From an uncultured Nesterenkonia sp. (GTDB lineage: Bacteria > Actinomycetota > Actinomycetes > Actinomycetales > Micrococcaceae), in assembly GCA_947494195.1 (NCBI GenBank), contig CANLUC010000002.1:1-64000 (forward strand): a DNA stretch of 64,000 nucleotides. The letters are read 5' to 3'. Under the pieces are notes generated by a model. It was not told where the DNA came from and ran no database searches. It was given only the letters and a program-made list of their open reading frames with translations. The position numbers were made by a program, and so were the translations under genes. The stretch's first letter is position 1; the number at the start of each line of letters is the position of its first letter. Of this stretch, positions 8,390-24,637 are shown in pieces.

Positions 8390-9097
8390 ATGACAGATTC
8401 CCACAACGGTCCCCCGCGGGTGCTTATCGTCGATGACGAAGAACCCCTGGTGCGACTCGTGGAGCGGTATCTCAGCCGTGAGGAACTCGCGGTGGAGTCC
8501 ACGGGCGACGGTGATGCCGCCGTGGAGCTGGTCCGGACGCACGACCCGGCTGTGGTGATCCTGGACCTTGGTCTGCCGGGTATGGACGGGATCGAAGTGT
8601 GTCGTCAGATTCGACGCTTTTCGGACTGCTACATCCTCATGCTCACCGCACGTGCAGAAGAAGTTGACCGGCTCATCGGACTCTCCGTGGGTGCAGATGA
8701 CTACGTCACGAAACCATTCAGCCCCCGGGAACTGGTGCTGCGCGTCCGTGCGCTGCTGCGTCGACCCCGTCAGGCACCCGCAGGCGATGGACGTTCAGTG
8801 ACCCTCGGCGAGCTCCATATTGATCTGGCCGGGAGGGGAGTAGACCTCAGGGGTGTACCTATCGATCTCACGCCGACGGAGTTCGACATTCTGGCTACCC
8901 TGGTCGCAGAGCCTGGGGTCGCGCTTTCGCGACGAGAGCTGATCACCAGGGTCTGGGGTCAGGACTGGGTCGGTGACAGTCACTTGGTCGATGTCCACAT
9001 CGGTCATCTGCGTCGAAAACTCGGTGATGACCCGGTCAGCCCGGAGTTCATACATACCGTCCGCGGAGTCGGGTACAAGGCAGGGACCCCACGATGA
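8390..9097 (+). CDS. OmpR-family response regulator
   Basis: A 235-residue regulator. The receiver domain (residues 10-122) has acidic D15/D16, phospho-acceptor D59 in VILDLGLPG and K108 in YVTKPF. A winged-helix DNA-binding domain follows (about 135-232, ending TVRGVGYK). It overlaps the histidine kinase gene by four bases (ATGA), forming a classic two-component operon. The signal is unknown; downstream genes (DUF418 protein, DUF305 lipoprotein) are possible targets. Confidence 0.93.
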   Translation: MTDSHNGPPRVLIVDDEEPLVRLVERYLSREELAVESTGDGDAAVELVRTHDPAVVILDLGLPGMDGIEVCRQIRRFSDCYILMLTARAEEVDRLIGLSVGADDYVTKPFSPRELVLRVRALLRRPRQAPAGDGRSVTLGELHIDLAGRGVDLRGVPIDLTPTEFDILATLVAEPGVALSRRELITRVWGQDWVGDSHLVDVHIGHLRRKLGDDPVSPEFIHTVRGVGYKAGTPR

Positions 9098-10221
9098 ACC
9101 CACATCAGCCAGTCTCAGGGCTGGGAGTGAGGATCTTTGCGGCGCTGATTCTGGTTCTCTGTGTTGCTGCGCTGACCGCCTGGCTGGTGGCCCTGGTGAT
9201 CGGGCCCGCGATCTTTCATGACCACATGCTGATGGCCGACCAGGCTGGCTCCTCGTCTGGGGTCATCCTCCACGCCGAGGAAGCCTTCGACGCAGCCTGG
9301 CAGATCTCTCTACTGCTGGCGCTAGCGGCAGCGTTCATCACGTCGGTGTTTGTCACGATCTTTCTTGTGCGTCGGCTGGTCAAGCCCATTCGCGACGTCC
9401 GGGGCGCGGTCAACAAAGTCGCCGCTGGTGACTACTCGGCAAGGGCTCCTCAGGGCAGCATCGGTGCCGAATTTTCTGAACTGATCGGCGCTTTCAACAC
9501 GATGGCCAGCGAATTGGACCAGACCGAGCACACACGAAAACGGCTCCTTTCAGACCTGGCTCACGAGATGCGCACCCCCGTCGCCACCGTGGACGGATAC
9601 CTCGAAGCCATGCAAGACGGCGTAGCCCAGGCCGACGACGAGACCCTGAACATGCTTCGCGAACAGACCGAACGCCTCACACGCCTCGCCGAGGACATCT
9701 CGCTGGTCAGTGCCGCCGAGGAGCAGCGCCTGAGTATGCACTCGGCGCCGGTCCGGGCCAGTGACCTCCTCACAGCAGCGGCATCCCAGACTCGAAGGCG
9801 CTATCAGGACCATGGAGTGAGCCTCCGCATCCACGCCAGCGACCACGCGCAGAACGCGGTGATCACCGTCGACCGCAACCGTATCGGACAAGTTCTCACC
9901 AACCTTCTAGATAACGCTCTGCAGCACACCGTGCCCGGCGACGAAGTGATCCTCACAGCGCAGCTGACCAAGACGTCAGTGATCTTGGAAGTCGCTGACA
10001 CCGGCCAGGGCATCGCCGCGGAGCACCTGCCCCATATCTTTGAACGCTTCTATCGCGTGGACACCGCCCGCGACCGCAAACATGGTGGCTCTGGGATCGG
10101 GCTGGCAATCGTGCGCTCCATCGTCACCGCTCACGCAGGCACAGTCGGGGCACGCAGCGAGGGCCCAGACGAAGGGGCCGTGTTCACGGTGACCCTGCCT
10201 CGTGACCGACCCGGCCCATGA
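9094..10221 (+). CDS. Membrane sensor histidine kinase
   Basis: A 375-residue HAMP-type kinase. Two membrane helices (about 13-37 and 68-92) flank a short extracellular loop of about 30 residues containing several His and Met. HAMP follows (about 93-145), then the HisKA box with H157 in LAHEMRTP, the N box NLLDNALQH and G boxes DTGQGI and GGSGIGLAIV. It is the partner of the overlapping response regulator. The very short sensor loop points to membrane-linked sensing or a small metal-type signal; this is inference. Confidence 0.92.
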   Translation: MNPHQPVSGLGVRIFAALILVLCVAALTAWLVALVIGPAIFHDHMLMADQAGSSSGVILHAEEAFDAAWQISLLLALAAAFITSVFVTIFLVRRLVKPIRDVRGAVNKVAAGDYSARAPQGSIGAEFSELIGAFNTMASELDQTEHTRKRLLSDLAHEMRTPVATVDGYLEAMQDGVAQADDETLNMLREQTERLTRLAEDISLVSAAEEQRLSMHSAPVRASDLLTAAASQTRRRYQDHGVSLRIHASDHAQNAVITVDRNRIGQVLTNLLDNALQHTVPGDEVILTAQLTKTSVILEVADTGQGIAAEHLPHIFERFYRVDTARDRKHGGSGIGLAIVRSIVTAHAGTVGARSEGPDEGAVFTVTLPRDRPGP

Positions 10222-11622: not shown

Positions 11623-12237
11623 ATGACGACGAAGACCTTGACTGCAAGCATCGGAGCTTTCGCCCTCGCGGCCACCCTGGCCGGGTGCGGCTCATCAGAA
11701 GAGTCCAGCGAATCGGCACCGGAGACGACCCAGAGCGCCGAGGAAGTGTCAGCGCAGTACAACGAGGCAGACGTGGACTACGTCTCAGGCATGGCGATGC
11801 ATCACCAGCAGGCTGTGGAGATGTCCGACATCCTGCTCGAGAAGGACGACGTGGAGCCAGAGGTCACCACTCTGGCCGAAGACATCCGCGAGGCCCAGGG
11901 CCCTGAGATCGAGCAGATGCAAGCCTGGCTGGACGCCTGGGGCGAAACGGGCACCAACGATGAGGACATGGAAAGCATGGACTCGATGGAGGGCATGTCG
12001 GAGATGGAAGGCATGATGAGCCAGGGCGACCTCAGTACGCTGGAGAACGCTACCGGCACAGAGGCGGCCCAGTTGTTCCTGGAGCAGATGATCGCCCACC
12101 ATGAAGGTGCGGTGTCCTCCGCCGAAGGTCACCTGGAGAACGGTGAGAACCCCGAGGCCCTGGAGCTCTCGGAGACCATCATCTCGGACCAGCAGGCCGA
12201 GATCGACGAGATGGCAACCATGCTCGAAGAACTCTGA
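11623..12237 (+). CDS. Met-rich DUF305 lipoprotein
   Basis: A 204-residue secreted lipoprotein: signal peptide with lipobox LAGC (Cys about residue 24), then two DUF305 (ferritin-like four-helix) halves with the metal-ligand-like motifs GMAMHHQQAVEM and MIAHHEGAVSSA. Between them lies an Asp/Glu/Met stretch with nine Met in about 25 residues (around MESMDSMEGMSEMEGMM). DUF305 proteins are frequent in copper and silver resistance loci, so extracytoplasmic metal binding is likely but unproven. AGGAGGAACCCC precedes the ATG. Confidence 0.85.
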   Translation: MTTKTLTASIGAFALAATLAGCGSSEESSESAPETTQSAEEVSAQYNEADVDYVSGMAMHHQQAVEMSDILLEKDDVEPEVTTLAEDIREAQGPEIEQMQAWLDAWGETGTNDEDMESMDSMEGMSEMEGMMSQGDLSTLENATGTEAAQLFLEQMIAHHEGAVSSAEGHLENGENPEALELSETIISDQQAEIDEMATMLEEL

Positions 12238-12320: not shown

Positions 12321-13181
12321 TCAGGCCAGCTGTTCGACGGTGTTTCCACCATCCACGGTGCGCAGCACAGTGGAGTCCACGACCAGCAGCGCTTCCACTG
12401 AACCGTCTTCGGTGAGGCCGGCGCCGAGGGCCACGACCTCGCCCACCGGCTCCTCACTGGCGGTCCAGCTCTGCCCGGAGTCGCGGCTGGTGAACAGTCG
12501 CCCATCAGTAGCTGACCCGACGATCGTGGTCTCATCGGCCCAGGCCACACGCGAGATCAGCCCCGGGGTCTCAAGGGTCTCCCAGCTGGCGCCGTCGGTG
12601 GAGAGCAGCAGCCCGGATTCGGTGGCTGCGGCGATCTCCCCCGTCCCTGGTGCCATGGCCAGGGCTGCCGGTGGGGCCGGGATCGCCAGGGTCTCCCAGT
12701 TCTGGCCGTCTGTGCTCATGCGCAGCTCTCCGTCGAAACCGACGATACGATCAGCGCCCGCGGTCAGAGCGTGGAAGTCCGATTCACCGCCTCGGGAGAG
12801 CACCTTCCAACTCTCTCCCTGGTCGATCGACTCGATCAGACCCACCGGCTCCGGCAGGTCACTCCCCGCCCCTGGGTGGCCCGACGCAAAATAGCGGCCC
12901 TCCGGCGTGACAGTAAATCCCATGAGATCCACGGTCGGGCCAACTGCCGTCAGTTCTCGGTCTTGGAGCCCGAACAGGCCCTCGTGAGTGGCCAGCAGCA
13001 CTACTGCAGGAGTGGCTGGATCGCGGACTATCGCGTGAACGTGGCTGACAATCGGGCCGACACTGCTTCCGGCGCCCGCTGGGGTCGCCTGCTGAGCCTC
13101 TGGGGCACAGGCGGCCATGGTGCCGGCACCAAGCATCCCAAGGCCCCCGGTCAACAGGTGTCTGCGAGTCAAAGGGTTCAT
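12321..13181 (-). CDS. F510_1955-like beta-propeller lipoprotein
   Basis: A 286-residue exported lipoprotein. The N-terminus has RRHLLTGGLG and a lipobox MAAC (Cys about residue 25), and the body shows repeated Asp-box/BNR-type units (SIDQGESWKVL, STDGQNWETL, STDGASWETL, SRDSGQSWTA), so a sialidase/Vps10-like beta-propeller. Proteins of this F510_1955 type commonly sit beside copper genes in Gram-positives and lack a proven glycosidase activity. ATG at 13179-13181 is preferred over an upstream TTG. Confidence 0.8.
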   Translation of the reverse strand: MNPLTRRHLLTGGLGMLGAGTMAACAPEAQQATPAGAGSSVGPIVSHVHAIVRDPATPAVVLLATHEGLFGLQDRELTAVGPTVDLMGFTVTPEGRYFASGHPGAGSDLPEPVGLIESIDQGESWKVLSRGGESDFHALTAGADRIVGFDGELRMSTDGQNWETLAIPAPPAALAMAPGTGEIAAATESGLLLSTDGASWETLETPGLISRVAWADETTIVGSATDGRLFTSRDSGQSWTASEEPVGEVVALGAGLTEDGSVEALLVVDSTVLRTVDGGNTVEQLA

Positions 13182-13413
13182 GGATCGTTTCCGCCCCAAT
13201 CATAGATTTCGACCCCCCACTTTATCCATCGCCATGTACCGAAACTGGTGGCAACCGACCGTGATTCTCTGAAGATTTGATGAAGGTAGTTCTCGCGGTG
13301 CTCCTGGCCTGATGTACTCCGAATGAGGGTCGCCAACCCTGGTCTGAAGGTGATCGCAGACTCTACTGGGCGGCGCCACGCCCGTAATCCCGTGCGCTGA
13401 TTGTCCTTGCACG

Positions 13414-13516: not shown

Positions 13517-13927
13517 ATGACTCATCATGTGACGTCCATGTTGGACACTTATCCCAAAGATCTTTCCGGGGTCGACAAGCAGAAGCTGGCCGAGTGCATC
13601 GAAGCCTGTTTCGACTGCGCGCAGACCTGTACCGCCTGTGCCGATGCCTGCCTTGCCGAAGACACGGTCGTGGAACTGAGCACCTGTATTCGCAAGAACG
13701 CCGACTGCGCCGATATCTGTGTGACGACCGGAAACCTCCTCTCACGTCAGACGGGTACAAACACTGAGGTCGTCCGAGCCGTCCTAGAAGCATGCCGCGC
13801 CGCATGCAAGTCCTGCGCGGACGAATGCGCCCAGCACGCAGAGCATCACGATCACTGCCGTATCTGCGCCGAAGCGTGCCGTCGGTGCGAACAGGCGTGC
13901 GCAGACCTCCTGGCCTCCTTGGACTAA
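13517..13927 (+). CDS. Four-helix-bundle Cys-rich (DUF326/Csp-type) copper-binding protein
   Basis: A 136-residue protein with 18 Cys in CxxxC/CxxC patterns along predicted helices (CIEACFDCAQTCTACADAC, then CRAACKSCADEC and CRICAEACRRCEQAC), plus a His cluster (HAEHHDHC). This is the signature of the DUF326 four-helix bundle family, which includes copper storage proteins that hold many Cu(I) ions inside the bundle. No signal peptide is present, so it acts in the cytosol (Csp3-like). Its neighbours are DUF305 and F510_1955-type genes, supporting copper handling. Confidence 0.88.
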   Translation: MTHHVTSMLDTYPKDLSGVDKQKLAECIEACFDCAQTCTACADACLAEDTVVELSTCIRKNADCADICVTTGNLLSRQTGTNTEVVRAVLEACRAACKSCADECAQHAEHHDHCRICAEACRRCEQACADLLASLD

Positions 13928-14132: not shown

Positions 14133-14738
14133 ATGTCAGACACGCACAAGAACGATGCGCAGGACCACGGTCGCCAGGACTCCTCCCCCGGCCCCTCTCA
14201 CCAGAAAAAGATGTACCTCCGATTCGGTGCCATGATCCTCACCGGGATGGTGGTGATGTATGGCCTCATGTTCGTGAGCTCCTGGGAGTGGAGCCACGTG
14301 CGCCTCAGTGAAAGCCGCATGATCATGGCGCTGACCATGGGCGGCGCCATGGGACTGGTGATGTTCGCGTGGATGATGAACATGTACAAGAACACCAAGG
14401 CCAACATCGCTGTCGTCGTGATCAGCGTGCTGCTACTCGGCACCGGTGTCGTCCTGGACCGCAGCCAGGTCACGGTGCAGGACACCGCCTACATGAAATC
14501 GATGATCCCGCATCATTCGATGGCAATCACTCGTTCAGAGCGCGCGAATCTCGAGGATGTCCGGGTGTGCGAGCTCGCCGTGGCGATCAGCGAGGCTCAG
14601 CGGCGCGAGATCTCCGAAATGGACTGGCTGATTGAAGACATCGAACGCCATGGCACCGCCACAACCGTCGAAGAGGCCGATGCCCGACCAGTCCCCGAGT
14701 ACCAGGAGACCGCAGACCTGGAATGCCCCACCGAGTAA
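14133..14738 (+). CDS. Membrane-anchored DUF305 protein
   Basis: A 201-residue protein: hydrophilic His-containing N-terminus, three Met-rich membrane helices (about 30-50, 62-84 and 90-108) and a C-terminal DUF305 segment with MIPHHSMAITRSERA and SEAQRREISEMDWLIEDI. Only one DUF305 half is present. The Met-rich helices (MVVMYGLMF, MIMALTMGGAMGLVMFAWMMNM) fit a thioether-metal context. The ribosome site is weak. It ends 234 bases from the convergent complex I-like operon. Confidence 0.75.
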   Translation: MSDTHKNDAQDHGRQDSSPGPSHQKKMYLRFGAMILTGMVVMYGLMFVSSWEWSHVRLSESRMIMALTMGGAMGLVMFAWMMNMYKNTKANIAVVVISVLLLGTGVVLDRSQVTVQDTAYMKSMIPHHSMAITRSERANLEDVRVCELAVAISEAQRREISEMDWLIEDIERHGTATTVEEADARPVPEYQETADLECPTE

Positions 14739-14972: not shown

Positions 14973-16406
14973 CTAGAGCAACAGAGGGCCTTCTAAAGTT
15001 GCCCACAGCAAACCGGCCAGGATGCCGAGTCCCAGGCTCGCGGCCGCGGCAGCACTGGCGGTGGCTAAGGGCCAGGCGGCTGCCCCACCGGAGCGGGGAA
15101 AGCCCGGGGACTCCTCGGCAGGCCGGGCGAAAACGGGGCCGATCCAGCGCAGGTAGTAGAAGAGGCTAAGCAGGCTGTTGAGCATCACGACTAGGGCCAA
15201 CCAGCCATGACCACCGTCCCAGGCGGCGGTGGCCGTGGTGAGCTTGCCGACGAACACGCCCAGCGGTGGGGTGCCCACCAGTCCCAACAGCGCGATAAGC
15301 AGAGTCAGTGCTAGCCCGGGCCTGCTACGGGCCAAGCCCCGGTAGGCGGTGAGTTCCCTGTGCTTCGGTAGCGTCGCGGTGACCGCGAAAGCCGCCACGT
15401 TAGTGAGAGCGTAGGCGGCCAGGTAGAACAACAGCGAGGGCAGGGCGAGGTCGCTGCGCCCGGCGGCGGAGACGGGCACAAGCAGGAACCCGACTTGGGC
15501 CACTGTCGACCAGCCCAGCAGCCGGCGGGGGTCACGTTGCCAGTAAGCGGCGAGATTGCCCAGGAACATCGATACCGTGGCCAGTGCCGCCGCGACGACC
15601 AGCCAGGAGTCGTTTCCGGTCGCGACGGTAGCTACGAGCCGGTACACGGCCACCAGTGCTCCGATTTTAGGCACGGTGGTGAGGAATGTGGCGGCGGTGA
15701 CGCCTGCGCCTTGCGCCGCGTCGGGCACCCAGAAGTGGGCGGGCACCCCACCGGCCTTGAACAGCAGCCCGACCAGCACGCATAGCACGCCGGCGCCCAC
15801 AGCTGCGGTCGGTGCTGCAGGTAGCTCGTGGGTGAGTCGGGCGTAGTCGGTGCCGCCGGCCAGCGCGTAGAGCACAGTGACTCCGAGCATGAGCACGATT
15901 CCGGACAGCGCCCCCATGAAGTAGGTCTTCATGGCTGCTTCGGCCCCAGACCGACCGCTGGCGAGCCCCACGATCCCATACAGGGGGATGCTGGCAAGCA
16001 GGAATCCAACGATGAGCACGAGTAGGTCGGTGGCCCCGGCCAGCACCATCACCCCGGTGGTGGCGAAGAGCAGTAGCGCGTAGGTGTCGGACTCCCGCGG
16101 GGAACCAGCGATTTCCCCGCCTGCCACACCAAGGACTAACAGGGTGGTCAGGACGGCGATCACCCGAGCGGCGCCGGTGGCGGTGTCCACGGCGAAGGTG
16201 CCGGAGAATGCGGCCTGCGCGGGCCCGGCCATCGCCAGGGCTGCGGCGACGGCGGCGCCCAGCAGGGCCAGGGCGGCCACGGCACGGGCGATCGACTGCC
16301 GGTGACGGGGCAGAAACGATCCGCCCAACAAGACGATGAGGCCACCGACGAAGACAATGATCTCTGGCAGTAGCAGTGTAGGTTGCATCTGCATCGAGGC
16401 GTCCAC
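14973..16406 (-). CDS. NuoN-like antiporter subunit lacking the TM5 Glu
   Basis: A 477-residue polytopic protein of the Mrp/NuoN family with about 14 helices. It keeps the TM7 Lys motif GLLFKAGGVPAHFW and a TM8 Lys (VPKIG). In the TM5 motif, where NuoN normally has Glu in a GLE-x-x-S-L-P-L-Y context, this protein reads VGFLLASIPLY with Leu136. Glu at this place is a hallmark of the proton channel, so pumping may be altered. It is the last gene of the operon, starting four bases after the NuoM stop. ATG at 16406 or the nearby ATG at codon 5 or 7 could be used. Confidence 0.85.
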   Translation of the reverse strand: MDASMQMQPTLLLPEIIVFVGGLIVLLGGSFLPRHRQSIARAVAALALLGAAVAAALAMAGPAQAAFSGTFAVDTATGAARVIAVLTTLLVLGVAGGEIAGSPRESDTYALLLFATTGVMVLAGATDLLVLIVGFLLASIPLYGIVGLASGRSGAEAAMKTYFMGALSGIVLMLGVTVLYALAGGTDYARLTHELPAAPTAAVGAGVLCVLVGLLFKAGGVPAHFWVPDAAQGAGVTAATFLTTVPKIGALVAVYRLVATVATGNDSWLVVAAALATVSMFLGNLAAYWQRDPRRLLGWSTVAQVGFLLVPVSAAGRSDLALPSLLFYLAAYALTNVAAFAVTATLPKHRELTAYRGLARSRPGLALTLLIALLGLVGTPPLGVFVGKLTTATAAWDGGHGWLALVVMLNSLLSLFYYLRWIGPVFARPAEESPGFPRSGGAAAWPLATASAAAAASLGLGILAGLLWATLEGPLLL

Positions 16407-16409
16407 CAG

Positions 16410-17906
16410 CTACCTTCCGATCAGGTCGACGACGCTAGCTGAGGCCGGTTCGATCACTACTAGCAGCACCTGGGGCAGCACCCCGATGAGCAGTGATAGG
16501 GATAGTAGCGGACCGACCGACCACAGTTCCCGGCCACGGAGGTCTGCAAATCCGGTCGACTGGCCCTGCGTGTGCCCGGTGAAGACTTGCTGCAACGCCC
16601 GAAGGAATAAGGCGGCGGTGATCAGGATGCCTAGCAGAGCTATCGCGGTGACGGGGGCGACCGCGATGCTGCCGGCGAAGATCTGGAACTCTGCGATGAA
16701 CCCAGATAGGCCGGGCAGGCCCAGGGAGGCGAATGCCGCGACTGCGAACAGTGCCGCGTAGCGGGGTGCGGGGGCTGCCAGGCCGCCGTAGGAGCCCATC
16801 TCATAGGTGCCGGACCGGGCGTGCATCACCCCGGCCAGCAGGAATAGTGCAGCGGTGATCAGTCCGTGGCTGACCATCTGCACGACCGCGCCGGTGATTG
16901 CCACGGAACGGGCCTGGGCGCTGTCATCGACGGCGAGGCCTACAGCGCCCAGAGCCAGGATGATGTAGCCCATGTGGTTTACCGATGTGTAGGCGATCAT
17001 CCGTTTGAGGTTTGTCTGTGCCAGTGCCACGAGCGCGCCGTACAACACTGAGACGATACCGATCACCACGATCACCCAGGCCCACCCCCGCCACGCTTCG
17101 GGCAGGATCGGTATGGCGATGCGCACGAACCCGTAGGTGCCCATCTTCAGCAGCACTCCCGCCAGCACGGCAGAGCCAGTGGCCGGGGCATCAGTGTGAG
17201 CCGGGGGCAGCCAGGTATGGAAGGGAACGGTGGGAGTCTTCACGGCAAGACCCACCAGGATCGCCGCCAGGACCAGCCCGCCGGTCAGCGGGCTGTCCTG
17301 CAGCGGGGTGGCCGCGACAAGCTCGGGGATATCGAAAGTATGCGGATCCGAGAACACGTAGAGCCCGATGAAGCCCAACAGCAGGGCGAGAGAACCCAAG
17401 AACGTGTAGAGGAAGAACTTCAAGGCAGAACCTGCGGCGTTACCGTGACCCCACCCAGCGATCACGAAGTACATGCCCACGATCGACAGATCGAAGAACA
17501 CGAAGAACAAGATGAGGTCCGCGGCCACGAACACCCCGAGGCTCACGCCCTGAAGAAACAAGAACAGCGCCGTCTGCGCACGGGGCCGTTCGGAATCTCC
17601 AAGGGCGTAGATGGCACACGCCAGGAAGACAAACGCCGTCATAGCTAACAGAGGCAACGAGAGTCCGTCCACACCGACGTGGTAGCTACTGTTGACCCCC
17701 GGGATCCACGGCACCTGCTCCTCAAACGCCAACTCGTTGGGGCCCGGGTCCTCGTAACCAGCCCAGAGCACGCCGACGAGTACTAACTCCACGGCACTCA
17801 CAGCGACCCAAGCCCACCGAGCGGCCGCAGATCCGATTGAGGGCACAGCCACCATCACGGCGGCGGCAACCAAGGGCAAGAAGACAATCAGACTCAGCAT
17901 GCTCAT
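16410..17906 (-). CDS. NuoM-like antiporter subunit
   Basis: A 498-residue NuoM/ND4-type membrane protein with about 14 helices. Conserved features include VKTPTVPFHTWLPPAHTDAP (TM7 Lys and lipid-side loop), LLKMGTYGFVRI, and YTSVNHMGYI (TM8 region). The TM5 acidic residue is Asp139 (FFDLSIVGMYF) rather than the usual Glu. It overlaps the NuoL stop by four bases. In complex I this subunit is a proton-translocating antiporter-like channel; here the driving reaction is unknown. Confidence 0.9.
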   Translation of the reverse strand: MSMLSLIVFLPLVAAAVMVAVPSIGSAAARWAWVAVSAVELVLVGVLWAGYEDPGPNELAFEEQVPWIPGVNSSYHVGVDGLSLPLLAMTAFVFLACAIYALGDSERPRAQTALFLFLQGVSLGVFVAADLILFFVFFDLSIVGMYFVIAGWGHGNAAGSALKFFLYTFLGSLALLLGFIGLYVFSDPHTFDIPELVAATPLQDSPLTGGLVLAAILVGLAVKTPTVPFHTWLPPAHTDAPATGSAVLAGVLLKMGTYGFVRIAIPILPEAWRGWAWVIVVIGIVSVLYGALVALAQTNLKRMIAYTSVNHMGYIILALGAVGLAVDDSAQARSVAITGAVVQMVSHGLITAALFLLAGVMHARSGTYEMGSYGGLAAPAPRYAALFAVAAFASLGLPGLSGFIAEFQIFAGSIAVAPVTAIALLGILITAALFLRALQQVFTGHTQGQSTGFADLRGRELWSVGPLLSLSLLIGVLPQVLLVVIEPASASVVDLIGR

Positions 17907-19813
17907 CCCATCATGGCGTAGACGGACCAGATCACGGCGCCGGCAGCGAGAAACGCGACGGTCTGGAGGAAGTACTGGTGGATGGCCCCGGTTTGCGGAG
18001 CCCGGGCCATCTGCCCGAGCCGGCGGACCTGGCTGGCGATGGCGACAACGCCCCGGTCGACCCCGTCCTCATCGGCGCGGGCGGCAGCCCGCGCCAAGAC
18101 CGGGACTCTAGCGGCCAGGGTCGTCACGGCCCGGTCCACGACGTGGTCATCGAGCCGAGCCAGGGCGCGCGCCAACACCGAGACTCTAGCGGCCAGGGTC
18201 GTCACGGCCCGGTCCACGACGTGGTCATCGAACCGGGCCAGGGCGCGCGCCAGGGCCAGTGACGGGCGGACCACGACGGCTTGCGCTATCGCTTCTAATC
18301 CCAGCCACCTCAGAGCCCATTCCGGCTCAGGAGAACGAAAACGCAGCATCAGCAGCAACACAGCTGCCGCGATTCCGGCCGAGACGGCGAGTTCGGCGAT
18401 CGAGACCTCGCCGTGCCCGCCCAGGGCATCGGCCAGCACGGGGCTTAACGGGGGCAAGGCGAGCACACCGAGCACCGCGGCGCCGCCGCCGAGCACGACT
18501 AGCGGGACCTGTTCCAGGGCACTGACTCTGCCGGCGCCCTCTGCCCGACCTTTTTCACCGGCACCGCGGCGCCACATCGCCCACAGGATTTTGCCGGAAT
18601 AGGCCGCCGACATTGCAGCAGCCACCAGTCCTGCAGCGTAGAGCCACGGGGAAGACTCGAGCGCGGCGGCGAGGACGGCGTCCTTCGTCGCCCACAGGGA
18701 CAGCGGAGCGAACCCGGCCAGTGCCAGCGCCGCCACTGCCGCAGTCACACCCACCACCGGCCACCGGCGGGCGACCCCCCGCAGGTCAGCAATCTTCTCA
18801 GTGCCCAGTGCACTCAGCCACGCACCGGCAGCCAGAAACAACAGAGCCTTCACCGAAGCGTGTGCCACCAGGTGGGACGCACCGCCGCTGACGGCGCCCA
18901 CCCCGGCGGCCAGAACCACGAAGCCCAGCTGGGCGATCGTGGAGGCGGCTAGCAGCTGCTTGAGTTCCCGCTGTCCCAGCGCCACCACCCCCATGAGCAC
19001 CGCCGTGAGCACACCGGCCCACGCAGTGACGGGTCCGGCCCAGCCAGTCGAGGCGAGCAGGGGCTCCACACGCAACAGCAGGTATCCCCCCATGGCGACC
19101 ATCGCGGCGGAGTGCAGCAGTGCACTGACCGGGCTGGGACCCTTCATCGCTCCGGAGAGCCAGAAAGAGAAGGGAAGCTGCGCGGCCTTGCCCAGTGCCG
19201 CCACCAGGATCCCGGCCGCAGCGACGTGGCGCCACGGGTCCGCAGCGGCCGAAAGCTCGGCCAGGGCCATTCCCGCCCCGCCGGCCAGCGCGGCGCCGGC
19301 AGCGACGTAGAGACCCAGGTCAGCGGTGCGAGTCGTGATGAAAGCAGTTAGTCCCGCGGAGACGCGGTCGGAGTCCCGCCACCAGAACCCGATCAGGGCA
19401 TAAGAGATCGCTCCCATCAGCTCCCAGGCCAACAGCAGCCCCGGAAGGCTGGCGGCCGTCACAGTGACCAGCGCAGCCGCTGAGAAGATCAGCATCAAAC
19501 CATGGAAGCGTGCCTGTGACTGCCCGATGTTCCCGGCCGCGAAGACCAGCACCAGGAACGTCACAGCCGCCACCATCGGCATAGTCAGCGCCGCGAGAGC
19601 GTCGACTTCCAGCGCAAAGTCCGAACCGGCCACGAACGGGTACGACACCGCCGGCCGGGTCAGCGCTGTGATGCACGCCAAAGCAGCCGCCAGCCCAGCG
19701 GTCACCAGTGCGATCGGGGCCGCCACGCGGTCCGCCCGGGTCAAGGCGAGTACAGCGCCCACGGCAGCTGGAAGCACAATCATGACCAGGAGTGCGGCCT
19801 GACCCACGGTCAC
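17903..19813 (-). CDS. NuoL-like antiporter subunit with repeat-bearing C-terminus
   Basis: A 636-residue NuoL/ND5-type subunit. The GTG start at 19811-19813 overlaps the NuoK stop (GTGA); the frame is open further upstream but that part overlaps nuoK and nuoJ. TM5 keeps its Glu (LLAWELMGAISY), and GKAAQLPFSFWL retains the TM7 Lys. SVSALLHSAAMV-type sequence is present (SPVSALLHSAAM). The C-terminal region, where NuoL forms its long lateral helix, carries two near-identical 26-residue repeats and a third degenerate one (about residues 518-596) before a final membrane helix. Confidence 0.9.
   Translation of the reverse strand: MTVGQAALLVMIVLPAAVGAVLALTRADRVAAPIALVTAGLAAALACITALTRPAVSYPFVAGSDFALEVDALAALTMPMVAAVTFLVLVFAAGNIGQSQARFHGLMLIFSAAALVTVTAASLPGLLLAWELMGAISYALIGFWWRDSDRVSAGLTAFITTRTADLGLYVAAGAALAGGAGMALAELSAAADPWRHVAAAGILVAALGKAAQLPFSFWLSGAMKGPSPVSALLHSAAMVAMGGYLLLRVEPLLASTGWAGPVTAWAGVLTAVLMGVVALGQRELKQLLAASTIAQLGFVVLAAGVGAVSGGASHLVAHASVKALLFLAAGAWLSALGTEKIADLRGVARRWPVVGVTAAVAALALAGFAPLSLWATKDAVLAAALESSPWLYAAGLVAAAMSAAYSGKILWAMWRRGAGEKGRAEGAGRVSALEQVPLVVLGGGAAVLGVLALPPLSPVLADALGGHGEVSIAELAVSAGIAAAVLLLMLRFRSPEPEWALRWLGLEAIAQAVVVRPSLALARALARFDDHVVDRAVTTLAARVSVLARALARLDDHVVDRAVTTLAARVPVLARAAARADEDGVDRGVVAIASQVRRLGQMARAPQTGAIHQYFLQTVAFLAAGAVIWSVYAMMG
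18105..18260 (-). repeat. 78-bp in-frame tandem duplication in nuoL-like gene
   Basis: Two direct copies, 18105-18182 and 18183-18260, match with only two mismatches over the first 70 bases. Each encodes 26 residues (LARALARxDDHVVDRAVTTL and six more). A third, diverged copy follows toward the C-terminus (DNA below 18105). Confidence 0.95.
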
Positions 19814-20112
19814 TGTGACAGCTCCTGCGCCATATCGGTCATATCCGTCTGCCCCCGGCGATGCAACAGCGTGGCCACGGCGAAGCCCATCGCCATCTCC
19901 ACCGTCATCGCCGCCAAAACCACCAACATCAGGACCTGTCCCGAGGGGTCCGGGGCCAGGAACCACCAGAACCCAGCCGCAGCCAGCAACACCGCGTTGA
20001 TCATGAGTTCCAACCCCATCATCACCATCACGACGACCTGCTGAGACAAGGCACCGTAAAGACCCACCGCGAACAACGCGGCGGCGACCACCAGGACAGC
20101 TTCGAGGGTCAT
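19810..20112 (-). CDS. NuoK-like subunit
   Basis: A 100-residue three-helix NuoK/ND4L protein. Both conserved membrane Glu are present, in MGLELMINAV (about residue 34) and in MTVEMAMGFAVATLLHRR (about residue 71). The C-terminal tail DMTDMAQELSQ is acidic and Met-bearing. It overlaps nuoJ and nuoL by a few bases, so it lies in the middle of a translationally coupled operon. Confidence 0.9.
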   Translation of the reverse strand: MTLEAVLVVAAALFAVGLYGALSQQVVVMVMMGLELMINAVLLAAAGFWWFLAPDPSGQVLMLVVLAAMTVEMAMGFAVATLLHRRGQTDMTDMAQELSQ

Positions 20113-20672
20113 CGGCCCACACCTCCCGATTGAGGATCGTCGGCGGGACGTCGGCGCAGATCGTCTCCAAGCCGGTCATAACGGGTGCGGTGGGCAGCCA
20201 GAACCACTCCGGCCACGATAGTTGCGACCATGACAGGGCCAACCACCGCCATGACCAGCATCTTCTCGCCCATGATCTCCAAACCGAGTGCATGTGTGAG
20301 GTCCTCCGGCGGCCCACCACGACGCGTCGGCCACGGGATGAGCAAGGCACCGCCTGCCAACAGCACGAAAACACCAACCGAGGCGCCGATCGCCGTCTTT
20401 TTCCCATGGGTCATGTCCATCGGCATCAGCGCGGGATTCATGCCCATGAACATCACCATATAGACAGCCATCACAGCCATCTCCATGACCATCATCAGAA
20501 TCGTGATCAGTCCGAGATAGCTTTGCTGTAGCAGAAGGATCTGTAAACCAACAGCAATGAATGACACAGCCAGCGCGTACGTAGCTCGGGCCATGGAATC
20601 CACCACGAACACGGCCGCCCCCGCGGCGACAGCGACCCCGGCTAGCACCCAGAACGCAATTCCGATCACCAT
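20109..20672 (-). CDS. NuoJ-like subunit with Met-rich TM3 segment
   Basis: A 187-residue NuoJ/ND6-type protein with five helices. The TM2-TM3 region keeps the plan FIAVGLQILLLQQSYLGLIT, but the following segment, residues 60-87, contains 12 Met in MxM and MxxM spacings in place of the usual GAI-M-VLF helix with its conserved Tyr. That helix forms a pi-bulge in complex I and couples the quinone site to the pumps. The C-terminus is basic. It follows nuoH by three bases. Confidence 0.88.
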   Translation of the reverse strand: MVIGIAFWVLAGVAVAAGAAVFVVDSMARATYALAVSFIAVGLQILLLQQSYLGLITILMMVMEMAVMAVYMVMFMGMNPALMPMDMTHGKKTAIGASVGVFVLLAGGALLIPWPTRRGGPPEDLTHALGLEIMGEKMLVMAVVGPVMVATIVAGVVLAAHRTRYDRLGDDLRRRPADDPQSGGVGR

Positions 20673-20675
20673 GGT

Positions 20676-21611
20676 TTAGCCTCCCCAGACAACGATGAGA
20701 GATACGACCAGATCCTGGACCACGGCAGCCGGGAGCAAGATCCCCCACCCGATCTCCATGAACCGGTCCGGGCGCGCCAAAGGGACCTTTCGGCGTAGCC
20801 ACACCAGCACGGTCAACACCGCCAGCGCCTTCACCAGCACCCATGCCCAGCCTGGCAGCCACGGACCGGCGCCCCCACCCAGAAAGAGCGGCACCGAAAA
20901 AGCAGCCCCGGCGGCCAGAAACATGTAACGCCCCGCCTGGAAGATCAAACGATCCACCGCTGAAAGCTCGGCCCGCACCCCACCAGCGATATCTGCGGAC
21001 AGAGCCGGGGCGAACGGTCCCCACACAGAAAAACCCATCACACCGATCAAGAAGATGACAAACGCCGCCGGCATCCACACCACGAACCACAGGCCCTCCT
21101 GCGCGGCAGCTACCTCCCCGGCGGCTAGGCTGCCAGCGGCGATCGCCGGGGCCGCCAGCGCAAACATCAGCGGCAGCTCATACGCCACCCCATGAGCCAG
21201 GAATCGGTAGCCCCCCACCAGACTGTGCGTCGAATTCGCCCCCCATCCCACCAACCACACCAAGGCCCAGACCACCACGTCGACGGCGTTAAACCACACA
21301 ACCCCCACATCGAGGTCAGCCAGCGTCCACTTGCCCAACGGGATCACCGCGACCATTAAGAACGCACCAATAAACATCCCAACACCACCGACCCGCCATA
21401 GCAGCGTGTCCGCGGCCACGGTCTTGCGCCGACGCTGTCGCAACAGCCGGGCAGTGCGGCTCAAGGGTGTGACCCACCCACCACCGACGCCCTGCGCCCG
21501 AGCCGAAAGCACCGCATCAAGAGCCACCGCGAAGAAAGCCAGGCCGCACAAGATGACCCCGGCCAGCACTGCCCATACAGCGGGAACGACTACCACCGCG
21601 TCTTCAGGCAT
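20676..21611 (-). CDS. NuoH-like subunit with eroded quinone-site loops
   Basis: A 311-residue NuoH/ND1-type protein with eight helices. GWGANSTHSLVGGYRFLAHGVAYELPL matches the canonical GWaSN-LLGxxRxxAqxxSYE region and keeps Glu145. The first loop lacks the ERKxxxxxQxRxGP motif (it reads ALDAVLSARAQGVGGG), and the loop after PF199-200 (PFAPALSADIAGGVRAELS) lacks the Asp/Glu pattern of PFDLPEAExEL. These are the residues that line the quinone chamber, so normal quinone chemistry looks unlikely. It overlaps the upstream fusion gene by eight bases. Confidence 0.85.
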   Translation of the reverse strand: MPEDAVVVVPAVWAVLAGVILCGLAFFAVALDAVLSARAQGVGGGWVTPLSRTARLLRQRRRKTVAADTLLWRVGGVGMFIGAFLMVAVIPLGKWTLADLDVGVVWFNAVDVVVWALVWLVGWGANSTHSLVGGYRFLAHGVAYELPLMFALAAPAIAAGSLAAGEVAAAQEGLWFVVWMPAAFVIFLIGVMGFSVWGPFAPALSADIAGGVRAELSAVDRLIFQAGRYMFLAAGAAFSVPLFLGGGAGPWLPGWAWVLVKALAVLTVLVWLRRKVPLARPDRFMEIGWGILLPAAVVQDLVVSLIVVWGG

Positions 21612-22773
21612 GCCTCACCTCCTGGACGGTCGGCAACGGCGCCAAATTCAGACTGGCCACGGCCAGCCGTACACTAGCCAGTTCCAACCCAGTGATCAGG
21701 CGCGGCACCAGCTCCCACGGGACAACGTCAGCCGCCTCCGACATCCGACTCCCACCGACGACGTCGTCCCGGACCCATTCAACCCTCGACAGCAACCGGT
21801 CATAGGCATCTCCTAGGCAATTTTCCGGCAAGTCGTGGCGTTCCAGATCGGACCGATCAAGCACCAGCACCCCCCGCAGAGACCAGCGCAGCAACCAAGA
21901 TCTCCGGATCGTGCGGACTAACCGCACGAGATTGTCCCGGGCGGCAGCCTGATCGCCCCCCACCAGAGCGTTCCGAGCCAGGTCGGCACGAGCCGCCAGA
22001 TCACCCACCCCCACCAGGGCCAGCAGCGCGGCGACGCCGTCACACCGCACAGCAGGCGTGAGATCAAGCTGCGAGCCATACGCTCTGGCCCCACGATTAT
22101 GGGCGTCAACGACGGAGACCTCAGCGTCAACCACAACATCACCCTGTAGCGAACAGTCCAGCACCACACCGGCAGGCCAGAACGGAAGCACAGGACCGAG
22201 CGGAAGGTGCAACACATCCATCTCCAAACCGTCTCGGTCCTGCCCACCCTGCGCCAAAGGAATCCCCTCCGGAGCCATATCCATCCCGCCATGGCCCCCG
22301 TGGCCGCTATCGTCTATGTCCTCGTGGCCCTCATCAACGCCATGGTCCATCTCGCCGTGGTCGCTGTGGCTCATCTGGTCGTCGCTACTGTGCTCCATCT
22401 GAGCGTGGTCCTCAGGGATCCGAGGCCTCTGTGTCCGCTCCCGGGCAACCCTCCTGTGATGAGGGGTGTCGAGAAGAAGAGTTGCGGCCTCGGCGAGAGC
22501 GGAGCTCACAACTCGGGGAGAGACAATGTCGGCGCGGGCCCGGGGGCCAGGCATCTGCTCCCAGAGACGGTCCACTATTCCTGCGAGATCGGGACCGGGC
22601 ACACCACACACCGCGAGCACGTCTGCCTCCGCAGGCGTCCACGCCCGGCGCCAACCCCGGCGCGTCATCTGTCTTTCGAGCTCCACCCGCGAAAGCCATT
22701 GGCCTGGGACCTCGACGACGAGGACTCGGGTTGCGCGGACCGCCAAGCTCCCGAGAATCCTGGTCAGGCCCAT
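21604..22773 (-). CDS. Degenerate NuoB-NuoD-like fusion with His/Met-rich linker
   Basis: A 389-residue protein in the place of NuoB/C/D. Residues 15-85 follow NuoB: LVVEVPGQW, then ADVLAVCGVPGPDLAGIVDRLWEQMPGPR, matching the NuoB DVLxVxGTxT-RxYxQMPxPR region, but there is no CC pair and only one Cys, so no N2 cluster. Residues 121-170 are a linker with 8 His, 5 Met and 16 Asp/Glu. Residues 188-225 (GPVLPFWPAGVVLDCSLQGD) resemble the NuoD/hydrogenase GPxHPxxxxP-LDGE start but lack the His. The ATG at 22771-22773 has GGGAG upstream and overlaps nuoA by ten bases. Homology is by eye; function unknown. Confidence 0.6.
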   Translation of the reverse strand: MGLTRILGSLAVRATRVLVVEVPGQWLSRVELERQMTRRGWRRAWTPAEADVLAVCGVPGPDLAGIVDRLWEQMPGPRARADIVSPRVVSSALAEAATLLLDTPHHRRVARERTQRPRIPEDHAQMEHSSDDQMSHSDHGEMDHGVDEGHEDIDDSGHGGHGGMDMAPEGIPLAQGGQDRDGLEMDVLHLPLGPVLPFWPAGVVLDCSLQGDVVVDAEVSVVDAHNRGARAYGSQLDLTPAVRCDGVAALLALVGVGDLAARADLARNALVGGDQAAARDNLVRLVRTIRRSWLLRWSLRGVLVLDRSDLERHDLPENCLGDAYDRLLSRVEWVRDDVVGGSRMSEAADVVPWELVPRLITGLELASVRLAVASLNLAPLPTVQEVRHA

Positions 22774-23177
22774 CGGAAGGCTCCCTCTCGCCAGGCCCAC
22801 GCCACCGCGACGAACAGCGCCCCGAGGAACAGAAACATCTCCACCACCGCAGAGATGCCTTTCTCTGCCACGATCATCGCCCATGGATACATGAACAGCA
22901 TCTCCACGTCGAAGGCCAGGAAGACGATCGAAGCTAGGTACCAACGCGAATGGAATCGGGATAAGGCGTGTTCCTGGGGTAACCACCCCGATTGGAAAGG
23001 AAGCACTGTCAGTGGATCAGCCAATACGCTAAACGCCCGGTGAATCGCGTAGAGGAAAACTACAGCGAATATCGCCAGCAGCGCCATGGCTATGATCCCG
23101 AAGTACACTGCGATCCATCCTTCCCTGTCGTCGAGGAAACGAAGTCTGTCACTTATCATCGCAGGCGGCGGCCCCAC
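22764..23177 (-). CDS. NuoA-like subunit
   Basis: A 137-residue NuoA/ND3-type protein with three helices and the diagnostic AFDVEMLFMYPWAMI. The TM1-TM2 loop reads FQSGWLPQEHALSRFHSRWY: the normally conserved Cys of the YECG motif is Ser63. In complex I this loop lines the quinone site. GTG at 23175-23177 with GGGGAGG upstream is chosen; ATG at codon 7 is possible. It is the first gene of an operon that continues, almost without gaps, to the NuoN-like gene. Confidence 0.9.
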   Translation of the reverse strand: MGPPPAMISDRLRFLDDREGWIAVYFGIIAMALLAIFAVVFLYAIHRAFSVLADPLTVLPFQSGWLPQEHALSRFHSRWYLASIVFLAFDVEMLFMYPWAMIVAEKGISAVVEMFLFLGALFVAVAWAWREGAFRWA

Positions 23178-23227: not shown

Positions 23228-23437
23228 GGTGTGCTGGCCGGAAGGCCCCGGCATGATTCCTGCCCCCAGTCATTGATGATCCGGGGGGTGATGTCACCGG
23301 GGCCTGAAGGTGGAAGAGACATCGCTAATAGGGGCCGGGCAGAAGTACTCGAGGCCGATCGTAACGTGGATGCCGAGCCCTGACACCACGGCTGGACCAG
23401 CACGTTGGAATCCGCTTCCCACACTGGAGAACCAGCC
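23228..23437 (+). ncRNA. Candidate IS110 bridge RNA region
   Basis: In IS110-type elements a structured bridge (seek) RNA that pairs with donor and target DNA is transcribed from the non-coding left end before the recombinase gene. This stretch is in the right place, contains GC-rich complementary blocks (for example CCCCGG near 23247 and CCGGGG near 23280 and 23300), and codes for no protein. The RNA itself is inferred, not demonstrated. Confidence 0.35.
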
Positions 23438-24637
23438 ATGATCAGCAACCATGAAGAGGTCGATGTCTTCCTCGGGGTCGACGTGGGCAAGGGCGAACAC
23501 CACGCCGTTGCCCTGGACCGGACGGGGCAGAAGCTCTACGACAAGGCCCTGCCCAACGACGAAACCAAAATGCGAGCCGTCATCGACACCCTCGCCCGGC
23601 ACGGCAAGATCTTGTTCGTCGTGGACCAGCCGGCAACCATCGGTGCCCTGCCGGTGGCAGTCGCCCAGGCCTGCGGGGTCACCGTGGCCTATCTGCCAGG
23701 ACTGGCGATGCGTCGCATCGCGGATCTGCACCCGGGCGAGGCCAAGACTGATGCCAGAGATGCCGCGATCATCGCTGAAGCCGCTCGCACGATGCCGCAC
23801 ACCCTGCGCTCGATCGAGGTCGCCGATGAACAGGTCGCTGAGCTCTCGATGCTCTGCGGTTTCGATGACGACCTGGCCAAGCAGGTCACCGCTACCTCGA
23901 ACCGGCTGCGGGGACTGCTCACCCAGATCCACCCCGGGCTGGAACGGGTCCTGGGACCACGTCTGGACCACCGGGCGGTGCTGGATCTGATCCGCACCTG
24001 GCCCACCCCAGCAGCGCTGCGCGCTGCTGGCCGCAAGCGGGTCGCTGCCCGGCTGAAGAAGCAGGCTCCGAGGATGTATGACCGGCTCACCGCTGAGATC
24101 TTCGAAGCTCTGGAGGCCCAGACCGTCGTGGTCATCGGCACCAATGCCGCTGCTGTGGTGCTGCCCCAGCTGGCCGGGATGCTCGCTGACCTGCGGACTT
24201 CACGGGACGCGCTGCATGCCCAGGTCGAGGCCATCGTGGAGGCCCACCCTCTTCACCCGGTCCTGAACTCGATTCCGGCGGTAGGGATCAGGACCGAAGC
24301 ACGGATCCTCACCGAGGTCGTCGGCAAGGACTTCCCCACCGCCGGACATCTCGCTTCCTACGCTGGACTTTCTCCGGTGACCTGGAGATCGGGGTCATCG
24401 ATCCGCGGGGATCATTCCTCAAGAAGGGGCAACAAGATCCTGAAACGGGCCCTGTTCCTGTCCTCCTTCGCGGCTCTGAAGGACCCGCTCTCCAGGGCCT
24501 ACTACGACCGCAAGAGAGCCGAAGGAAAGAAGCACAACCAAGCTCTAATCGCCCTGGCTCGGCGCCGCTGTGATGTCATCTACGCGATGCTCCGCGACGG
24601 CACTCTCTACGAAGCCAAGATCCCCCTCGCTGCTTGA
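23438..24637 (+). CDS. IS110-family DEDD transposase
   Basis: A 399-residue recombinase. The N-terminal RuvC-like domain has the acidic residues in FLGVDVGKGEHH, VVDQPA and KTDARDA (the DEDD set), and the C-terminal Transposase_20 domain has IPAVGIRTEARILTEV and YAGLSPVTWRSGSSIRGDHSSRRGN, including the catalytic Ser region. It is full length and apparently intact. ATG at 23438 follows GGAGAACCAGCC. Confidence 0.95.
   Translation: MISNHEEVDVFLGVDVGKGEHHAVALDRTGQKLYDKALPNDETKMRAVIDTLARHGKILFVVDQPATIGALPVAVAQACGVTVAYLPGLAMRRIADLHPGEAKTDARDAAIIAEAARTMPHTLRSIEVADEQVAELSMLCGFDDDLAKQVTATSNRLRGLLTQIHPGLERVLGPRLDHRAVLDLIRTWPTPAALRAAGRKRVAARLKKQAPRMYDRLTAEIFEALEAQTVVVIGTNAAAVVLPQLAGMLADLRTSRDALHAQVEAIVEAHPLHPVLNSIPAVGIRTEARILTEVVGKDFPTAGHLASYAGLSPVTWRSGSSIRGDHSSRRGNKILKRALFLSSFAALKDPLSRAYYDRKRAEGKKHNQALIALARRRCDVIYAMLRDGTLYEAKIPLAA

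Follow-up and report, generated by a model that had tools for sequence, protein, structure and literature searches.

In the present study, we analyzed a 64,000-nucleotide stretch of DNA from an uncultured Nesterenkonia sp. (contig CANLUC010000002.1, positions 1 to 64,000; hereafter the window), in which the minus strand carries eight closely spaced, coupled genes at 14973-23177 that encode a complex I-like membrane arm, in the order A, fusion (B/D), H, J, K, L, M, and N. A protein of metal-binding type takes the place of the electron-receiving part of complex I, and the core of the arm contains a row of methionines, which together suggest a respiratory machine rebuilt to move copper. The involvement of a metal is very probable, and an exporter of Cu(I) (perhaps also Ag(I)) that is driven by the proton motive force and built on the membrane arm is the reading that we favor from the sequences, with reasonable rather than strong confidence. 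We infer Cu(I) as the metal, its transport, the direction of export, the membrane topology, and the coupling to protons: Cu(I) or Ag(I) is proposed because of the chemistry of methionine and the copper genes nearby, export because of the resistance context and the placing of the ligands, and proton coupling because of the mechanics of complex I.

An earlier note on this DNA had described the eight-gene operon with its fusion, and this observation, including the gene order and positions, is confirmed here. Its interpretation, an ion pump or channel that something other than NADH or hydrogen drives or gates, is partly supported and is extended in the present study; it holds in outline, but the evidence for copper was missed, as the note overlooked the copper-type neighbors (8.4-14.7 kb), the methionines that J and K contain, and the His/Met-rich linker of the fusion.

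The eight-gene operon and its fusion protein

All of the membrane subunits of complex I are present, as had been claimed. Pfam matches exceeding the cut-off were obtained for A (22764-23177; PF00507, E=5e-23), H (20676-21611; PF00146, E=2e-43, and alignment with the E. coli protein), J (20109-20672; PF00499, E=3e-9), K (19810-20112; PF00420, E=8e-13), and three Proton_antipo_M proteins (PF00361), namely, the NuoL-like L (17903-19813; E=3e-48), the NuoM-like M (16410-17906; E=4e-66), and the NuoN-like N (14973-16406; E=4e-48). The listed start of A is a GTG, and the true start may be downstream. The frame of L as listed (17903-20407, 834 amino acids) is overlong, and a GTG overlapping the stop codon of K is the probable start, giving 17903-19813 and 636 amino acids. 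No internal stops were found in the seven frames that were checked, and L lies within an open frame.

The operon is devoid of separate NuoB and NuoD as well as of NuoE, F, G, and I, and no electron carrier is encoded in it according to Pfam, in agreement with the claim that the redox module is absent. Regarding the host genome (2.78 Mb, 99.91% complete), neither PF01058 (NuoB) nor PF00346 (NuoD) was matched at E<=0.001; the absence of a genuine NuoB or NuoD is thereby upheld, and the proviso of the earlier note that canonical subunits may be encoded elsewhere is answered for these two, which the genome-wide search covered. An ordinary complex I with distant partners was ruled out by the same result. 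The host genome holds four further Proton_antipo_M matches in two places (G000:C2:450940-455398 and C5:137517-141912), and these two gene groups look like Mrp clusters.

The fusion gene (21604-22773, minus strand) encodes 389 amino acids, with a NuoB-like part at approximately residues 1-112, a linker rich in His, Met, and Asp at approximately 113-168, and a NuoD-like part at approximately 170-380. The protein gave zero Pfam matches at E<=0.1. When a profile of 72 fusion homologues was compared with PDB chains, NuoB was the best match (Thermus thermophilus, E=1.6e-6, profile positions 45-85 on NuoB residues 70-110), and NuoD chains appeared at E=1.8 or worse only; among the 72 members, PF00346 was weakly seen in six (best E=0.005). 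The AlphaFold2 model, which was based on 68 homologues, reached a predicted local distance difference test score (pLDDT) of 83.7 and a predicted TM-score (pTM) of 0.80, with residues 125-168 below a pLDDT of 50. In a Foldseek search with this model, all of the 50 matches listed were complex I, NDH, or group 4 hydrogenase-type chains of NuoB or NuoD size (best E=3.5e-4, probability 1.00; E<=0.001 in 4 of 679 matches); the assignment to NuoB or NuoD was made from chain length, chain letter, and partly the PDB profile search because the listing names the entry only. The TM-score was 0.36 for the best match over a whole NuoD-size chain and 0.53 for the best-ranked NuoB-size chain, and since these values are modest, the fusion is regarded as a divergent version. 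The NuoB/NuoD-like fold, on which the earlier note had made its identification of the fusion depend, was found.

The identity of the NuoD-like part is settled by more distant relatives, in which PF00346 was matched in Halomonas (E=2.7e-7) and in Rubrobacter, Paracoccus, Nitratireductor, and Thioclava (4e-17 to 8e-13); it was not found in the fusions of Roseivivax and Acuticoccus. PF01058 was matched at the N terminus in two of seven distant relatives, at E=0.003-0.005, which is below the cut-off.

Also borne out was the loss of the cofactor cysteines. The CC pair is absent from the fusion of the window and is present in only one of 74 fusions of its type, a CxxC motif occurs in none of the 74, and the CC pair was found in none of eight fusions from plasmids of other types. 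The 74-row alignment excluded the window again (L001), the second pieces of included loci (L029 and L030), scraps (L025 and L028), six sequences of doubtful start or frame (L005, L015, L031, L035, L038, and L068), and frames without a stop; L032 was additionally excluded from A1 and A2. A hydrogenase-type complex was ruled out by these counts.

Putative metal-binding segments and conserved residues of the membrane subunits

The linker between the two parts of the fusion has a median length of 59 residues and consists of 20% His, 8% Met, and 24% Asp plus Glu, with almost no Cys and with DHxxM/H repeats. In a sister lineage, two to five HMBD domains (PF19335, E=8e-23 to 1e-75) precede the NuoD-like PF00346 part in all four fusions that were scanned, and in the two HMBD fusions with a weak NuoB match, these domains are C-terminal to the NuoB-like part. 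The number of CxxC motifs in the HMBD-bearing fusions, 2-5, equals that of the HMBD domains. In Rubrobacter, Paracoccus, Nitratireductor, and Thioclava, the annotation of the gene that follows A and precedes H reads "heavy metal-binding domain-containing protein", and the Paracoccus gene as annotated begins inside the HMBD part. On three proteobacterial plasmids, a His-rich stretch is instead attached to the C terminus of J. No other single point argues as strongly for the handling of a metal as the presence of two kinds of device at one site of the fusion and of a third on J. In Pseudonocardia alni (L184, 15001-16413), the fusion linker is a long GEH repeat; the public annotation of this locus starts the fusion gene late and places two small genes on the other strand.

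Regarding subunit J, 77 distinct and complete sequences, with identities to the window down to 51%, were compared; the counts given here for J, K, H, L, M, and N include each distinct complete protein that reaches at least 85% of the length in the window. Met 27, 60, 61, 65, 68, 72, 76, 78, 85, 87, 134, and 141 as well as Glu64 and His89 occur in every one of the 77 sequences, and Met138 and Met83 are kept in 76 and 75, respectively. Canonical NuoJ, represented by 30 actinobacterial sequences and that of E. coli, shows these 16 residues only once in total (Met27, in one row), whereas Met74 is common to both types. Most of the set extends beyond the type found in the window: all of 12 J proteins from both lineages keep Met 27, 60, 61, 65, 68, 72, 74, 76, 78, 85, 87, and 138, Glu64, and His89, and a set of 25 rows keeps the same residues except for Met74 (22/25) and Met78 (24/25). 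The latter set comprises the window, 20 new loci, and four of the twelve, with one Rubrobacter plasmid counted twice; both sets include Rubrobacter and Alpha- and Gammaproteobacteria, and their rows overlap. Met61, 65, 68, 72, and 76, a set picked post hoc, fall within 80 degrees of one face of the helix. By the positive-inside rule, with the limits of the helices taken from a weak model, the C terminus of J and the 79-92 loop are cytosolic in 75 of 77 sequences. Helix 3 of J would accordingly run from the outside (residue 52) to the cytosol (residue 78), which would place Met83, 85, and 87 and His89 at a cytosolic mouth.

Subunit K keeps the glutamate pair of NuoK (Glu35 and Glu72) and has four extra methionines, Met 29, 31, 69, and 73, which are found in 70 of 70 relatives versus none of 30 canonical NuoK sequences; Gln-Gln replaces the Arg pair of E. 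coli NuoK (45/45). Methionine amounts to 9.3% of J, 8.4% of K, and 4.2% of A, and to only 1.6-2.3% of H, L, M, and N, about half of the E. coli values or less. Since these last four subunits are poor in methionine, the enrichment in J and K is not attributable to overall composition.

The antiporter-like subunits retain most of the residues expected of them. All seven E. coli antiporter residues that were checked are kept in L (51/51 each), with Gln at His334 in 32 of 51; six of seven are kept in M, in which Asp replaces Glu144 (45/45); and N keeps Glu154, Lys247, and Lys395 (52/52) and Lys217 (48/52), with Leu in place of Glu133 (52/52). L051 and L052 were excluded from the counts for L and M. 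At the corresponding sites of the HMBD-bearing lineage, Glu is found in M and Val or Leu in N. Regarding H, it was compared with the acidic residues of the quinone site and E-channel of E. coli NuoH: E36, E216, and E218 are lost, E157 and E228 are each kept in 74 of 75, and E220 is replaced by Asp in 72 of 75; E157 is not kept in three proteobacterial H proteins. By their look, the proton-handling modules L, M, and N appear to be alive while the redox module is gone.

Distribution, mobility, and the copper-gene context

The operon is conserved well beyond the window. In a sample of 394 genomes of the class, the fusion was matched in 28, two of which were non-operons (G192, weak; G235, a scrap). 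Among the 27 class loci outside the window, 25 carry all eight genes in order, G309 is cut by a contig end, and G235, the scrap, was excluded from the even class sample of 26 loci. In a separate scan of 54 loci, the complete and ordered set of eight was present in 48, and contig ends interrupt the remaining six; these loci were found through exact peptides of H from the window and are therefore biased to near relatives, with near-duplicate species included. The conserved gene order that the earlier note had proposed to look for was thus found, and because it is kept across both samples, the operon is not a product of chance. In the phylum, the J profile was matched at E<=1e-15 in 35 of 396 genomes; 20 of the 31 additional loci were examined, and A, H, J, K, L, M, and N are present in 17, with three cut by contig ends. 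The fusion was seen by similarity in 17 of these 20 loci, L197, L202, and L203 being those in which it was not, and a long open frame lies in its place in L202 and L203. A decayed pseudo-complex was ruled out by conservation across phyla. The genome G387 holds two diverged copies of the whole operon (C1:3336056 and C1:4242359), each with multicopper oxidase and DUF305 neighbors.

The H proteins of two Lysobacter strains are 86-87% identical to that of the window and those of six Kocuria strains 79-82%, and transfer between phyla is suggested by Lysobacter H being the closer of the two. The fusion was found on Actinomycetota plasmids (16 records), including those of Mycobacterium avium (pHP17a, L087), M. 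intracellulare, and M. paragordonae, which carry both the fusion and J, and the operon or parts of it were found on Pseudomonadota plasmids. In most of the plasmid records read, the system is annotated as "NADH-quinone oxidoreductase". The hosts include soil and sputum isolates, and several are marine. In the window, an IS110-type transposase gene (23405-24637), which points the opposite way, immediately borders gene A on its upstream side, and an IS110-like element also adjoins the operon in the M. avium plasmid L087. On Martelella mediterranea pMM259 (L189, 13665-15203), the operon lies in a copper island with CueR, and an ISL3 transposase apparently truncates it beyond the initial portion of the fusion gene. 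The plasmid records of Martelella lutilitoris (H40) and the Dysgonomonadaceae bacterium zrk40 (H41) have an identical length of 166348 and an identical match, and one of them may be misassigned.

At many loci, though not at every one, the operon is surrounded by copper genes, in Actinomycetota as well as in Pseudomonadota. Among 59 loci, 54 of which came from the scan with H peptides and in which near-species loci were not merged and representatives of the sequence clusters were checked with Pfam, clusters were found for P-type ATPases in 26, DUF305 proteins in 25, HMA chaperones in 16, F510_1955-type proteins in 15, DUF326-type proteins in 13, multicopper oxidases in 11, and CsoR in 10; of the 26 in the ATPase cluster, 20 have the DKTGT motif and 17 have CPC. 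Any copper-type cluster was present in 43 of the 59 loci and a strict marker (ATPase, HMA, oxidase, or CsoR) in 33, the former count also including DUF1541. A strict marker was found in 14 and any marker in 15 of the 26 loci of the even class sample, and a strict marker in 11 of 20 loci of the phylum sample, including all seven f58-family loci fetched. In comparison with random placement, CsoR (10/29 loci, 0.55 expected) and DUF305 (9/29, 0.64 expected) were enriched within 20 kb of the operon, in a count that includes the two non-operons G192 and G235.

The operon or its remnant adjoins genes annotated for copper or heavy metals in nine of 14 plasmid stretches, those of M. avium, Arthrobacter FB24, Halomonas, Acuticoccus, Roseivivax, Martelella, Pseudonocardia, Rubrobacter, and Nitratireductor. 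The neighbors are a heavy-metal P-type ATPase on M. avium pHP17a, CopB, CopC, CopD, and a multicopper oxidase on the Halomonas plasmid, and CueR on the plasmids of Acuticoccus, Roseivivax, and Martelella. The other five stretches, from Gordonia, Rhodococcus, Paracoccus, Thioclava, and Vreelandella, lack such annotation; in that of Vreelandella, almost every gene is annotated as hypothetical. A search of eight plasmid loci for CueR-like operators by their consensus revealed no convincing site upstream of A in the seven that extend far enough there, and the only good site in these eight loci precedes a P-type ATPase.

In the window itself, no P-type ATPase, CsoR, or multicopper oxidase was found in those genes that were scanned with Pfam. 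On the plus strand lie genes for a membrane protein with a DUF305 end (14133-14738; PF03713, E=3e-9), a Cys-rich DUF326 protein with 18 Cys in 136 amino acids (13517-13927; PF03860), which we take to be similar to the Csp copper-storage proteins, and a secreted DUF305 protein (11623-12237; PF03713, E=9e-47), a recurrent neighbor. An F510_1955-type secreted protein, named from annotation and likewise a recurrent neighbor, is encoded on the minus strand (12321-13199). A response regulator and a histidine kinase, identified by Pfam, form a two-component system (8390-10221, plus strand) that may have a role in the locus, and upstream of it lies a gamma-glutamyltranspeptidase gene (6557-8272).

Known systems and the proposed function

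The system resembles respiratory complex I in all seven membrane subunits, most of the antiporter residues, and the NuoK glutamate pair, but differs in that the NuoB- and NuoD-like parts are merged, the cofactor sites are lost, and J and K have extra methionines. Of the features that define NDH-1, the membrane subunits are present, while the CC pair of cluster N2, a separate NuoB and NuoD, the NADH module (with regard to the operon), and several acidic residues of NuoH are missing. The CxxC nickel ligands of group 4 [NiFe] hydrogenases are absent from all 74 fusions. Ehr complexes are built from a small and a large subunit as separate proteins, together with a ferredoxin-like subunit, whereas we found a single fused protein and no NuoI in the operon. 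Mrp consists of the MrpA-G set without NuoA-, NuoH-, or NuoB/D-like parts, all of which are present here, and the Dab system also lacks H, A, and a B/D-like part; the Mrp Na+/H+ antiporter and the DabAB carbon pump are similar in having complex I-type antiporter modules without a redox module, but handle a different cargo. DabA was not noticed among the annotated neighbors read, no search having been aimed at it. The stacked methionines are reminiscent of the Cu(I) ladders of the CusA and CTR1 types, which belong to unrelated proteins. Judged by these sequence features, the system belongs to the complex I superfamily but lacks features that define complex I itself, the group 4 hydrogenases, Ehr, and Mrp.

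The earlier note had seen in the system the best candidate for an undescribed one, but the gene set itself has been described. As nuoAHJKLMN, it is in print as a "partial NDH-1 operon" of marine actinomycetes, among genes for marine adaptation (Penn and Jensen, 2012, PMC3314556; Ian, 2014, PMC4018334; Sun, 2018, PMC6002675; Almeida, 2019, PMC6676996), and the last of these places a hypothetical protein between nuoA and nuoH. According to the published descriptions, with which the comparison was made, the seven membrane genes are the same, but they were read as a proton or sodium pump, and the text examined neither identifies the hypothetical protein nor makes a tie to copper; two carriers, K. 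marina SO9-6 and Streptomyces SM254, come from copper-rich sites. In Marinobacter atlanticus, a complex I-like nuoADHJKL cassette is likewise situated amid copper homeostasis genes, in a copper operon with which it is co-expressed (PMC8233155); M and N are reported to be missing there, and the use of copper redox energy, rather than a path for the metal, is the authors' guess. The open-access literature, to which our search extended and which leaves out most subscription journals, yielded no report on what the fusion is, on the methionines, or on the transport of a metal by a complex of this kind.

In the mechanism that we propose, the fusion, which occupies the place of NuoB and NuoD with the cofactor sites lost, would catch cytosolic Cu(I). 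The His/Met/Asp linker, or in relatives the HMBD domains or the His tail of J, may then feed the ion to the cytosolic mouth of J at Met83, 85, and 87 and His89, from which it would step along Met76, 72, 68, 65, and 61 of helix 3, beside Glu64 and the methionines of K, to the outside. Protons that flow back by way of L, M, and N would drive the conformational or electrostatic wave of complex I in reverse. In terms of what a metal transporter should contain, predicted metal-binding domains and ligands are present within the complex, as HMBD in the sister lineage and as the invariant Met and His.

Several observations weigh against this proposal. In J, Met134 and Met141 are often lost outside the type found in the window, being kept in 11 and 4 of the 25 rows, respectively; the seven invariant methionines of helix 3, when taken together, show no significant clustering on one face (0.057); and the AlphaFold model of J, which served for helix limits only, is weak (pLDDT 66, pTM 0.51). 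In K of the sister lineage, neither Met31 nor the second Gln is always kept, and four of the 74 linkers are without any His. Eleven of the 26 loci in the even class sample lack any copper-type marker up to a distance of about 20 kb or, where the contig stops sooner, up to its end, nine of 20 in the phylum sample have no strict marker, and P-type ATPases within 20 kb (2/29 versus 1.05 expected) are not enriched in the even class sample. The loss of Glu133 in N and the presence of Asp144 in M mean that coupling may differ.

Considering the conserved antiporter residues, the alternative that survives best is a copper-gated ion exchanger, in which the arm moves H+ or Na+/K+ and copper on the fusion and J is a signal and not the cargo, for example to restore the membrane potential or pH under copper stress. 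The seven of seven residues kept in L and six of seven in M, as well as the apparent position of the fusion at the gating place of complex I, are consistent with this possibility; however, a sensor needs few ligands, and 12 invariant methionines along or near a transmembrane helix are more similar to a path, such that we regard it as unlikely, if deserving of attention. The same methionines may also conduct inward, so that copper or silver is taken up or copper is delivered to cuproenzymes, since Met ladders also occur in importers such as CTR1 and multicopper oxidases are frequent neighbors. Nevertheless, CsoR, CueR, P-type ATPases, and CopB/C/D are neighbors usual in resistance, and the extra metal-binding segments are on the side predicted to be cytosolic from 75 of 77 J sequences, which makes an inward direction improbable.

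A pump running on copper redox energy, as suggested for M. atlanticus (PMC8233155), would account for the co-expression with copper genes described there and for the multicopper oxidases nearby; we consider it highly improbable in view of the lost cofactor sites (CC in 1/74, CxxC in 0/74), the loss of several NuoH glutamates, and the lack of an electron carrier in the operon. The published reading as a partial NDH-1 proton or sodium pump that serves in adaptation to marine or osmotic conditions (Penn and Jensen, 2012, PMC3314556, and followers) fits the several marine hosts, but it names no energy input, leaves the J methionines, HMBD domains, and copper neighbors unexplained, and has to accommodate soil and sputum isolates, and hence carries the slightest probability.

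The preferred reading, a proton-driven Cu(I) exporter, may define a new class of metal pump, in which NuoB-[metal-binding segment]-NuoD is the metal-receiving module, helix 3 of NuoJ is the Cu(I) conduit, and the proton gradient is converted into metal export, in a form spread by plasmids across phyla; we hold the chances for and against this proposition to be evenly balanced. If transport is shown, the system will be a new class of metal pump, and otherwise a variant within the complex I superfamily. If the reading is true, complex I is not a redox pump only, and its coupling machinery can partner a metal ion instead of electrons. This would offer a direct test of the long-debated coupling mechanism of complex I because the central gate, formed by helix 3 of NuoJ and the glutamate pair of NuoK, would handle a cation whose movement can be traced directly, with no quinone and no iron-sulfur chain involved. 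A copper-resistance system would also be added to those on the plasmids of soil, marine, and sputum isolates.

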